From assembly GCA_947458265.1 (NCBI GenBank), contig CANGYF010000006.1, positions 124,001 to 188,000 on the forward strand: a stretch of DNA of 64,000 nt, in the 5' to 3' direction. This stretch comes from Betaproteobacteria bacterium. GTDB taxonomy: Bacteria > Pseudomonadota > Gammaproteobacteria > Burkholderiales > CAIKXV01. A program made the position numbers and the translations under genes. Positions 7,808 to 12,321 of this stretch are shown here, piece by piece; within the stretch, counting starts at the first letter, position 1, and each line of letters begins with the position of its first letter. The notes under the pieces were generated by a model. That model searched no databases. It saw only the letters and a list, made by a program, of their open reading frames with translations, and was not told the DNA's origin.

Positions 7808-8992
7808 ATGAGCCATGCCCTGCCGTTGGCCGATGTGCGCGTGGTGGAGTTCGTGCACATGGTCATGGGCCCCACCTGCGGCCTGGTGCTGGGCGACATG
7901 GGCGCCGAGGTGATCAAGATCGAGCCGCTCGACGGCGACCATACGCGCAAGCTGACCGCCTCCGGCGCCGGCTTCTTCCCGGCCTACAACCGGAACAAGA
8001 AGAGCCTGGCGGTGGACCTGAAGTCGCCGCGTGGCAAGGCCATCGTGCAGCGGCTGGTCGCGAAGTCCGACGTGCTCACCGAGAACTTCCGGCCGGGCGC
8101 GATGCAGGCCCTCGGCTTCGGCTACGAGGCCCTGTCCAGGGAGAACCCGGGCCTGGTCTACTGCTCGCACAAGGGCTTCCTGAGTGGCCCGTACGCGCAC
8201 CGCACGGCGCTCGACGAGATGGCACAGATGATGGGCGGCCTGGCCTACATGACCGGACCGAAGGGCCGTCCGCTGCGTGCGGGCGCCTCGGTCAACGACG
8301 TGATGGGCGGCGTGTTCGGCGCGGTCGCGGTGATGGGCGCGCTGTTCCAGCGCAAGGCGACCGGTCGCGGCCAGTACGTCGAGAGCGCGCTCTACGAGAA
8401 CAACGTGTTCCTCATGGCGCAGCACATGATGGAATCGCTCGCCACCGGCCGGCCGGCGGTACCGATGCCGGAGCGCATCCGCGCCTGGGCCGTGTACGAC
8501 ACCTTCACCACCGTCGAAGGCGAGCAGGTGTTCGTCGGCGTGGTCACTGACACGCAGTGGAAGGTGTTCTGCGATGCGTTCGAACTGCCGCAGTTCCTCG
8601 ACGACCCCTCGCTCGCGACCAACCCGCAGCGCGTCGAACAGCGCGCCAGGACCATCCCGGTGATCACCGAACTGTTCTCGCGCATGAGCAAGGCTGACCT
8701 GATGGCGCGCTTCGAGGCGCTCGGCCTGCCGTTCGCGCCGATCGCCCGCCCGGAGGACCTGTTCGACGATCCACACCTGAATGCCTCCGGCGGGCTGGCG
8801 CCGATCACGCTGCCCGACGGCACCGCGACGAAGGTGCCGATCCTGCCGATCGAGATGGATGGACACCGGCTGGGCGTGCGCCTGGACCTGCCGAAGGTGG
8901 GCGAGCACACCCGGGAGATCCTCGCGGCCATCGGCTGCAGCGATGGCGAGATCGATGAACTGGCCGCGGCAAAGGTCGTGCGCACCGGCTGA
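7808..8992 (+). CDS. CaiB/BaiF family CoA transferase
   Basis: [36 protein letters not shown]...[21 protein letters not shown]. Confidence 0.92.
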
Positions 8993-9046
8993 TCCACGCA
9001 CCGGGACTGCCGTCCGCATCCTGCACGGGCGGGCGGCGTAGGCTCG

Positions 9047-11359
9047 TCAGCGGGCGCTGCGCCGCCGGCGCGTCCAGCGACTGTGGATGCTCTGCCGCCG
9101 CGGCTGCAGCAGCGACTGACTGCCTGCATGCGCCTCGCGGTAGACCGGCAGGTCTTCCGGCGGGAACGGCCGTGCGATCCAGTAGCCCTGCACCTGGTCG
9201 CAGCCGCGCTGGCGCAGCGCCTCGAGTTGCGCGGGGGTCTCCACCCCTTCGGCGATGGTGACCATGCCAAGGCCGTTCGCCAGCCGGATGATCGTACTGA
9301 CGATCGCCTGGTCGGCCGCACTGTCGGTGACATTGGAGACGAACGAACGGTCGATCTTCAGCTTGCCGACCTTGAATCGCTTGAGGTAGCTCAGCGACGA
9401 ATAGCCAGTGCCGAAATCGTCGATCGACAGTCCGATGCCGTGGGCGTGCAGCGCGTCCATCACCGCCATCGCCCCGGTCGGATCGTCCGAGGCGACGCTC
9501 TCGGTCAGTTCGAGCTCGAGCCGGCAGGGTGGCACCCCTTGCTCGTCCACCAGGCGGCGCACGTGGTCGGGAAAGCCGGGCTGGCGGAACTGCACGACCG
9601 AGAGGTTGACCGCCACCTTCGGCGGCGCAATGTCCTGGTCGATCCACTGGCGCATCTGCTCGAGTGCAGTGCGCAGCACCCAGTCGCCGATCGGGACGAT
9701 CAGGCCGCTGCTCTCGGCGATCGGGATGAACTCGACCGGCGAAACCGGCCCCAGCTCGCCGCTGTTCCAGCGCAACAGGGCCTCGACTCCGGTCAGGGTA
9801 CCGTCCTTCAACGAGCACTGTGGCTGGAACTGCAGGGAAAACTCGCCGCGCTCGATCGCGCGCCGCAGCAGGTTGTCCAAAAGCAGGGCGCGGGTGCATT
9901 GCGCCTGCATCTCGGCGGTGAAGAAGCAGAACGCGTCGCGACCCAGCTCCTTAGTGCGGTACATCGCGACTTCCGCCCGGCTGGCGAGCGCGTCGAAGTC
10001 GGCGCCGTCGAACGGGAACATCGCGATCCCTGCCGACGACGTGATCATCAGTTCCTGCGGCCCGACCACGAAGGGCCGTGAGACCAGTTCCTGCAGGCGA
10101 CGCACCACCTGCGCGGCTTCGGTCGCACTGGCACCCGGCAACAGCAGCACGAACTCGTCGCCGCCGACCCTGCCCAGGACATCCTGCTCACGCAACGCCG
10201 AGCAGAGGCGATTCGCAAGCTCCACCAGCAACCGGTCGCCGACGGCATGCCCCAGCGAGTCGTTCACCTTCTTGAAGTGGTCCAGGTCCAGGAACAGGAA
10301 GGCCAGGGGCTGCCCGTCCTGCCCAGCCTGTTCCAGCAACCGCGCGGCCCGCTCGCGCAGGAAGGCCCGGTTCGGCAGCTCGGTCAGCGAATCGTAGTTC
10401 GCCAGCCGCCAGATGCGCTCCTCGGCCGCCTTGCGCTCGGTGAGGTCGCTGAACGACGCCACGAAATGCGTGGTCTGCCCTTTGCCGCCGACCACCCTGC
10501 GCAGCACGAGGTACTGCGGGTGCACCGAACCATCCTTGCGGCGGCTCCAGACCTCGCCCTGCCAGTAACCGCTGGCGCCGGCCTCCCGCCACATCTCGAG
10601 GTAGAACGACGGGTCATGCCGGTCGGAACCGAGGATGCCCGGGCTCTGGCCGAGCAGGTCGGCCTCCGGATAGCCGCTGCTGGCGGTGAAGGCGGCATTG
10701 ACCTTGACGATGCGCTGGTTCGCATCGGTGATCATCATGGCCTCGCCGCCCTCCTCGAACACACGGGCGGCGAGCAGCAGTTCGTCCTTCGCGATGTGTC
10801 GGGCGGACACATCGTGCTGGGTGGCGACGAACTGCACCAACTCACCGGCCGCGTCGAACACCGGCAGCACGGTCACTTCGTTCCAGAACGCCGTTCCGTC
10901 CTTGCGGTAGTTGAGCAGGTCACCCCTGAACGGCCGGCCCGCCGCGATCGCTTCTCGCATCTCCTGCTGCACTTCGGGGCAGGTATCAGGCCCCCGCAGG
11001 AAGCCGCAGGCCCGTCCGACGAGTTCCTCGGCAGAGTAACCGGTCAGCGCTTCGAACGCCGGGTTCACGTAGACCACGCGGCGCTGCGTATCCGACACCA
11101 TGATCGGCTCGGGTGCCAGCCGCATGGCTTCGTCGCGCTGCGGCATCACCGGCTCCGCCACCTGCGGCTGGGAGGAAGCGAGCCAGAGCCTGCTCGCCTG
11201 CGAGGACGAGGAAGTCGACGGAATCTTCGGATCGCGCAGTCGCATCGGTTCTCGGACGAATGCGACGTGCTTCGGGTCCGCTGCTGCCGACCCGACCAGC
11301 CGTTGCATCACGCTCTGGATGTTGGCGGCCCGGAAACGAGACGAAGACTGCCCGGGCAC
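9047..11359 (-). CDS. LOV-like PAS / PAS / GGDEF / EAL domain protein (c-di-GMP turnover)
   Basis: GRACGFLRGPDT...NYRKDGTAFWN...FVATQHDVS (LOV-like PAS), second PAS, GRVGGDEFVLLLPG (GGDEF), GVEALLRW and DDFGTGYSSLSYLKRF (EAL); GTG start at 11359, ATG alternative at 11308. Confidence 0.9.
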   Translation of the reverse strand: MPGQSSSRFRAANIQSVMQRLVGSAAADPKHVAFVREPMRLRDPKIPSTSSSSQASRLWLASSQPQVAEPVMPQRDEAMRLAPEPIMVSDTQRRVVYVNPAFEALTGYSAEELVGRACGFLRGPDTCPEVQQEMREAIAAGRPFRGDLLNYRKDGTAFWNEVTVLPVFDAAGELVQFVATQHDVSARHIAKDELLLAARVFEEGGEAMMITDANQRIVKVNAAFTASSGYPEADLLGQSPGILGSDRHDPSFYLEMWREAGASGYWQGEVWSRRKDGSVHPQYLVLRRVVGGKGQTTHFVASFSDLTERKAAEERIWRLANYDSLTELPNRAFLRERAARLLEQAGQDGQPLAFLFLDLDHFKKVNDSLGHAVGDRLLVELANRLCSALREQDVLGRVGGDEFVLLLPGASATEAAQVVRRLQELVSRPFVVGPQELMITSSAGIAMFPFDGADFDALASRAEVAMYRTKELGRDAFCFFTAEMQAQCTRALLLDNLLRRAIERGEFSLQFQPQCSLKDGTLTGVEALLRWNSGELGPVSPVEFIPIAESSGLIVPIGDWVLRTALEQMRQWIDQDIAPPKVAVNLSVVQFRQPGFPDHVRRLVDEQGVPPCRLELELTESVASDDPTGAMAVMDALHAHGIGLSIDDFGTGYSSLSYLKRFKVGKLKIDRSFVSNVTDSAADQAIVSTIIRLANGLGMVTIAEGVETPAQLEALRQRGCDQVQGYWIARPFPPEDLPVYREAHAGSQSLLQPRRQSIHSRWTRRRRSAR

Positions 11360-11402
11360 CTGATTTTTGAGTTTAATCCAGGCATTGAAGGCCTGTGGAC
11401 TC

Positions 11403-11429
11403 TTATCGGCAGCCTACCGCCAAACTTGC
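11403..11429 (-). promoter_or_regulatory. Candidate sigma28 (FliA) promoter for the LOV-GGDEF-EAL gene
   Basis: Minus strand reads GCAAGTTT-N11(GGCGGTAGGCT)-GCCGATAA, against the consensus TAAAGTTT-N11-GCCGATAA (8/8 at -10, 6/8 at -35, exact spacer), about 44 nt upstream of the GTG start. Confidence 0.65.
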
Positions 11430-11436
11430 GCCCCCG

Positions 11437-12321
11437 CTAGCGCTTAAGTCGCGCCATCTCGCCAAGTACCGCGCAGACCGAGCCGGTGTCCTGCTCCGCC
11501 CGACCCTGCGCCATCGCCGCGTCGTACAGGATGGCCGAGGTATTGAGCAGCGGCGTCGGGCAGGCCACCGCCTTCGCCATCTCGCCGATGATGTGCATGT
11601 CCTTCTGCCAGACGGCAACCTTCATCGTCGCCGGGTACTCGTCCTTCACCATCATCGGGCCGCGCACCTCGAACATGCGCGAACCACCGGCACCGTTGCC
11701 GGCCACCTTCAGGATGGATGCCGGATCGAGCCCCATCTTCATGCCGAACACGAAGGCCTCGGCCGCCGCCACGTTGTGGATCGCCACCAGCATGTTGGCC
11801 ACCGCCTTCATCTTCATGCCGTTGCCGAACGGGCCGACATGGTCCTGCTGGCGGGAGAAGCCGGCGAACACCGGGCGGACCTTCTCCGCCGCCGCCGTAT
11901 CGCCGCTCATGTAGACCGAGAGGTCGCCGCTCACCGCCTGGCCGCCGGTGCCCGACAGCGGGCAGTCGAGCATCGTGATGCCGGCGGCAGCCAGTGCATC
12001 ATGGCTGCGCAGCTTGTCCTCGATAGGCAGCGTCGAGAGTTCGGCCACGACGAGGCCGCCGCGTGCGGCATCGAGGATGCCATCGGGGCCTGCAACAACC
12101 GCGTCGAGCGCGGCGACGCTCGGCAGGGAGAGCAGCAGCACGTCGGCCTTCGCGGCGGCTTCCTTCGGCGATGCGACCAGTTCGACGCCCTTGGCCCTGG
12201 CCGCCGCCTTCGCAGCCTCGGACACATCGAAACCGAGCACGGTGAAGCCGTTCTTCACCAGGTTCGCCGAGATCGCCGAGCCCATGATGCCGAGCCCGAT
12301 CATCGCCACTGTCTGTGCCAT
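11437..12321 (-). CDS. NAD(P)-dependent beta-hydroxyacid dehydrogenase (3-hydroxyisobutyrate dehydrogenase family)
   Basis: MAQTVAMIGLGIMGSAISANLVKNGFTVLGFDVS Rossmann motif; DCPLSGTGGQAVSGDLSVY. Confidence 0.9.
   Translation of the reverse strand: MAQTVAMIGLGIMGSAISANLVKNGFTVLGFDVSEAAKAAARAKGVELVASPKEAAAKADVLLLSLPSVAALDAVVAGPDGILDAARGGLVVAELSTLPIEDKLRSHDALAAAGITMLDCPLSGTGGQAVSGDLSVYMSGDTAAAEKVRPVFAGFSRQQDHVGPFGNGMKMKAVANMLVAIHNVAAAEAFVFGMKMGLDPASILKVAGNGAGGSRMFEVRGPMMVKDEYPATMKVAVWQKDMHIIGEMAKAVACPTPLLNTSAILYDAAMAQGRAEQDTGSVCAVLGEMARLKR

Follow-up and report, generated by a model that had tools for sequence, protein, structure and literature searches.

A putative LOV-type light sensor with replaced flavin-tail ligands on a PAS-GGDEF-EAL protein of a photosynthetic betaproteobacterium

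LOV and LOV-like domains on GGDEF-EAL pairs have been described in several bacteria. SL2 of Synechococcus elongatus, a LOV-GGDEF-EAL protein, is a blue-light-activated phosphodiesterase (PDE; PMC8846402). The protein described here is encoded in a 64,000-nucleotide stretch of DNA, called the window. It resembles SL2 in carrying a LOV domain on GGDEF-EAL and in having a phototroph as host, whereas SL2 has a canonical LOV domain with two Arg on the FMN phosphate, and the window protein has an inserted second PAS domain and the N, R and Q around its Cys replaced. The LOV-deltaQ-GGDEF-EAL protein of Mesorhizobium loti (WP_140774521.1; PMC9098866) is another LOV-GGDEF-EAL case in which a conserved LOV residue has been lost naturally, but its loss concerns the signalling Gln, with at least 8 of nine motif residues retained, while the window protein keeps the Gln and loses flavin-tail ligands. 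RprR of Ralstonia pseudosolanacearum (GRNCRFLH; PMC12802281) is a betaproteobacterial LOV/PAS protein with GGDEF-EAL and a variant Gln position; unlike the window protein, it keeps N and R, and it carries Cache, HAMP and three PAS-superfamily domains. RmcA of Pseudomonas aeruginosa and the Cys-less LOV-like PAS domains (PMC8846402, PMC4682037) share the placement of a LOV-like PAS on GGDEF-EAL and have no Cys, whereas the window domain keeps it. The window genome also holds a protein of RmcA-like architecture (L170, G000:C7:79000-83500), in which a Pro-type Cys-less LOV-like domain (GRHPRFLHG, FWI) sits on a GGEEF-EAL-type protein. The LOV-PAS-GGDEF-EAL architecture is not new, since this core recurs in L140 and L141, proteins of other species within the class, and L140 has the short A-beta/B-beta loop in common with the window domain; they differ in their canonical motifs (GKNCRFMQG and GRNCRFLQG) and in an extra N-terminal region that looks GAF-like by eye.

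The gene was first noted as an open reading frame at 9047-11359. The frame was confirmed on the minus strand, where it runs from a GTG at 11359 to the stop codon at 9047, but translation likely begins at ATG 11245 rather than at the GTG. A Met is found at the ATG position in all three orthologs (MRLRDPK, MRPRKPN and MSLRDPE), and the window protein would then begin MRLRDPK. A scan for promoters and terminators at the gene found no sigma-70-like promoter and no terminator. The features are as follows.

9047..11245, minus strand: LOV-PAS-GGDEF-EAL gene, probable start ATG 11245, 732 aa, its Met aligned with Met in three orthologs
10805..11113, minus strand: first PAS domain, of LOV lineage (Pfam PAS_9, residues 83-185; LOV HMM; AF2 fold)
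10991..11017, minus strand: GRACGFLRG motif (canonical GxNCRFLQG), Cys kept, N to A, R to G, Q to R
11006..11008, minus strand: codon of the adduct-type Cys (Cys118 from the GTG, Cys80 from the ATG), invariant in alignments A1 and A2
10910..10912, minus strand: first isoalloxazine-contacting Asn (NYRKDG), invariant in A1 and A2
10880..10882, minus strand: second isoalloxazine-contacting Asn (FWN), invariant in A1 and A2
10817..10819, minus strand: signalling Gln (FVATQHD), invariant in A1
10436..10744, minus strand: second PAS domain, GxxPxxLxS type (Pfam PAS_9; its own model matches the NifL FAD-PAS best)
9935..10402, minus strand: GGDEF domain (Pfam 157.6 bits), GGDEF signature and RxxD I-site intact
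9167..9871, minus strand: EAL domain (Pfam 256.8 bits), catalytic motifs intact by sequence

Pfam thus reads two PAS domains, a GGDEF domain and an EAL domain in the window protein. With the GGDEF signature, the RxxD I-site and the EAL motifs (EALLRW, NLS, ELTES, DDFGTGYS, KLKID and EGVET) all present, both enzymes appear intact, as the earlier note had held from the GGDEF and EAL motifs. A GGDEF domain killed by G289E in DxLTGLPNR was considered and the substitution found not decisive, Glu occupying this position in four of the 71 GGDEF domains of the loci, the window's included.

The earlier note had likened the first PAS domain to LOV domains, and the resemblance proved to be far beyond chance, with HMM and fold in agreement. 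Nearly all of the best 60 PDB sequence matches listed were LOV photoreceptors (E ~1e-19 to 1e-28), the best LOV domains scoring about 100 bits; the top single match was the FAD-PAS protein MmoS, by the sum of two domains (56.6 + 50.2 bits). NCBIfam gave sub-threshold YtvA and LOV-kinase matches. Against three HMMs built without the window lineage, the domain fell with canonical LOV (146.6 bits, vs 125.9 for Pro-type Cys-less LOV-like and 90.1 for NifL/MmoS-like PAS domains), and masking the motif left it there (122.6, 108.3 and 76.6 bits, respectively), so that the placement outside LOV for which the earlier note had left room was not what emerged. An AF2 model made from a 31-row alignment (mean pLDDT 90.2) lay 0.7-0.8 A from CagFbFP (TMt 0.94) and 0.7-1.0 A from several isolated LOV domains, and the best 50 PDB fold matches of this predicted structure were all LOV domains. 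As a control, the second PAS domain was likewise modelled; its first match was NifL, and LOV domains appeared only from about 1.8 A upwards, which shows that the fold test has some discriminating power. A plain NifL/MmoS-type PAS was rejected on the HMM scores (90.1 vs 146.6 bits for LOV) and the all-LOV fold matches; the domain also differs from the Cys-less LOV-like domains of the RmcA PASd type, the Cys being kept in all four orthologs, the window's among them.

In a tree from which the nine motif columns were left out, the window domain formed one clade (100/99) with those of the three same-genus orthologs (genomes G010, G004 and G007). This clade was sister to two Rhodoferax hybrid kinases (93/85), and the lineage lay inside a mostly Cys-bearing set (93/87, not starred); an AU test did not reject uniting it with the Cys-less LOV-like group (p 0.48). 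The first PAS domain is thus closest to LOV by profile and fold, the tree being consistent with this at less certainty. The two kinases, from Rhodoferax MAGs (L033 and L034), have an N-terminal membrane region and a Cys-bearing LOV domain (GKTCAILRG and GRSCRVLQG, respectively) and are the nearest relatives found outside the genus. In three genomes of the same order (L120, L121 and L122), we observed a LOV-like domain with GRDYCLLVG or GSDYCLLVG, where the Cys sits one position further downstream, His (HYRKDG) replaces the first Asn, Thr replaces the Gln, and FWN is kept.

The residues of the flavin site were as first read. The adduct Cys, the two ring-contacting Asn and the signalling Gln are retained (GRACGFLRG, NYRKDGTAFWN and FVATQHDVS), and the N, R and Q around the Cys are indeed A, G and R. 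YtvA holds the FMN tail through N61, R63, Q66 and R79 (PMC3836802); three of these four ligands (N61, R63 and Q66) are therefore the ones replaced in the window domain, and the fourth is kept as R67. The LOV filter of PMC9098866 requires at least 8 of nine residues, and the window domain has six (G, C, F, L, N and N). With tail ligands absent and the filter failed, we call the domain a LOV-lineage variant, not a canonical FMN-LOV photoreceptor; given its LOV kinship and photochemical core, it probably functions as LOV sensors do. Among 105 LOV domains with the Cys and both Asn, gathered by likeness to the query and not as a random sample, N, R and Q occur together in 89, the first Arg is missing in 14 and the Asn in seven. 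Arg at the Gln position was found in two of the 105, the window domain and that of L033, both lacking the first Arg (2/14 where it is lost vs 0/91 where it is kept). The chance of this association is about 0.017 by simple counting, which ignores kinship and turns on two sequences; relocation of the Arg to the Gln position, in the window domain and one Rhodoferax kinase, is thus only a lead.

The losses of N and R are common to the window protein and its three orthologs, and the Q-to-R change (Q84R) is private to the window genome among the four; the motif of the G004 ortholog reads GRACGFLQG. Seven homologs with 37-83% identity to the window protein all keep Cys50, Asn82, Asn92 and Gln113 (A1 numbering), while N, R and Q vary. 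In the most divergent ortholog (L004, in G007), both phosphate-binding Arg are lost (GQTCAILQG, LGAAL) and the Cys, both Asn and the Gln are kept. Pairwise dN/dS values against the three orthologs (Nei-Gojobori point estimates with no confidence limits) were 0.25, 0.13 and 0.31 for the LOV domain, near those of the EAL domain (0.21, 0.24 and 0.19); those of the second PAS domain (0.87, 0.33 and 0.61) and the GGDEF domain (0.42, 0.40 and 0.45) were above the LOV values. Changes private to the window protein number 13 in the second PAS and 10 in the GGDEF domain, vs two and three in G010, and four in the LOV domain, Q84R among them, which places any relaxation in the second PAS and GGDEF domains rather than in the LOV domain. 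The LOV domain is thus under purifying selection and probably not in decay, and this, with the invariant Cys, Asn, Asn and Gln of the lineage, weakens the earlier suggestion of a LOV domain drifting to a light-independent role. An isolated, pseudogenising copy was rejected on the orthologs in three other genomes and the low LOV dN/dS.

The gene lies between a 3-hydroxyisobutyrate-dehydrogenase (HIBDH)-like and a CaiB-type CoA-transferase gene, named from sequence, in 4 of the 11 genus genomes; in six of the 11 the two neighbours are adjacent without it, their coding ends lying 4 bp apart in G003, G006 and G008. About 1.5 kb at the G002 junction was considered as a remnant of the LOV gene and rejected, as it holds an unrelated MFS-like ORF. 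The junction (window 8992-11437; L149-L151, L163-L169) is a variable insertion site occupied by the LOV gene, an MFS-like ORF or nothing, and the LOV gene is accessory there. In G010 and G007 the HIBDH-like gene is inverted relative to the LOV gene. The LOV proteins of the other holders are 65-81% identical to the window's, and the two flanking proteins 91-96%. PF00124 reaction-centre genes are found in all 11 genus genomes, and the window genome has two adjacent ones, read as pufL and pufM, and also encodes a BLUF protein. A light sensor would fit this lifestyle, and light input is plausible. In Dinoroseobacter shibae, which has a similar photosystem, the synthesis of photopigments is under the control of a fast LOV protein (PMC4335406). 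A search for rhodopsin (PF01036) gave no match and was silent in every control genome too, making it uninformative.

The effects reported at the flavin-tail positions suggest that anchoring is weakened rather than chemistry lost. In YtvA LOV, riboflavin (351 nM) and FAD (224 nM) are both bound more tightly than FMN (715 nM), and the FMN phosphate adds no net binding energy (PMC3836802). YtvA R63K and Q66H are photoactive, with recovery times in wet E. coli cells of 312 and 753 s vs 2100 s, and EL222 is a natural case of Ala at the position of Q66 (PMC4161478). Mutating two Arg of the phosphate network in PpSB1 (R61 and R66) speeds recovery 280-fold, and recovery of W619_1-LOV takes 1.5 min with riboflavin vs 460 min with FMN (PMC5314338). 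AsLOV2 N449S recovers in 0.99 s (PMC10751770). An altered flavin binding or photocycle would follow soundly from such mutants at the same positions. What speaks most strongly against flavin binding is that it is absent from AsLOV2 N449A and N449T (PMC10751770), since the window domain has A at the corresponding YtvA N61 position and G007 has T; the effects of three replaced ligands may also be additive.

We lean, with somewhat better than even confidence, towards a blue-light-responsive c-di-GMP enzyme with a flavin-binding, adduct-forming and fast-recovering sensor, a reading that draws on the LOV kinship, the invariant residues, the low LOV dN/dS, the reaction-centre genes and the mutants above. 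The LOV-lineage domain would bind flavin through the conserved ring pocket and form a Cys-flavin adduct, and the J-alpha helix and then the second PAS domain would relay its signal to the GGDEF-EAL pair. Loss of the ribityl and phosphate ligands (YtvA N61, R63 and Q66) would loosen the flavin tail, and fast dark recovery with a relaxed choice among FMN, riboflavin and FAD is predicted to result; fast cycling would suit a phototroph that reads the light of the moment reversibly. As for the direction of the c-di-GMP response, we infer that EAL output would be favoured. SL2 is a light-activated PDE and the M. loti LOV-GGDEF fragment a light-repressed cyclase (PMC9098866), and either type would lower c-di-GMP in light.

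A sensor that has lost flavin or light sensing, its LOV fold kept as a dimerisation or relay module with the signal coming from the second PAS domain, is unlikely but is the main rival. AsLOV2 N449A/T lose flavin (PMC10751770), three of the four tail ligands are gone with Q-to-R private to the window genome among the orthologs, and blue light has little effect on transcription through the LOV-bearing RprR of Ralstonia (PMC12802281). Against such a module stand a Cys, two Asn and a Gln invariant in the lineage and a low LOV dN/dS; moreover, the second Asn is lost in P-type LOV-like domains, a Cys-less paralog class in which the window genome's copy reads I, and is kept in the window lineage. 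We consider it distinctly improbable that bound flavin serves chiefly for redox or oxygen sensing, in the manner of NifL, MmoS or the role proposed for RmcA PASd, with semiquinone signalling that does not depend on the Cys. Photoreduction signalling is possible in Cys-less LOV proteins (PMC4682037), RmcA PASd connects flavin, phenazines and light (PMC8846402), and MmoS is the top single PDB match, but the NifL/MmoS-like HMM scores 56 bits under LOV, the Cys is kept and the best 50 fold matches are all LOV. An essentially normal FMN-LOV, its changes neutral and its phosphate held by the second Arg and the Arg at the Gln position, is very improbable: R67 (YtvA R79) is kept and Arg occurs at the Gln position only where the first Arg is lost (2/14 vs 0/91), yet the cited N, R or Q changes alter recovery or binding, G007 is without both Arg, and the association depends on two cases.

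Beyond the blue-light-responsive enzyme that we favour, we put forward tentatively, and with some doubt, that the family is a conserved Cys-retaining LOV lineage in which the ribityl/phosphate anchor was abandoned and the photochemical core kept, with riboflavin or FAD use or re-anchoring through an Arg at the Gln position as possibilities. If true, this lineage would complement the known Cys-less and Gln-less LOV domains. Proteins of this type would be missed by at least one published LOV search, that of PMC9098866, because its filter uses the motif that is broken here. Engineered changes at the same positions strongly speeded recovery or abolished flavin binding, and four natural orthologs with the core kept and the ligands lost would allow a direct test of whether and how nature compensates. 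On sequence grounds, a photosynthetic betaproteobacterium appears to carry an unusual natural variant of a LOV-type sensor on a c-di-GMP enzyme; should it respond to light, it would offer phototrophs control of c-di-GMP through a fast LOV domain that may tolerate riboflavin or FAD.
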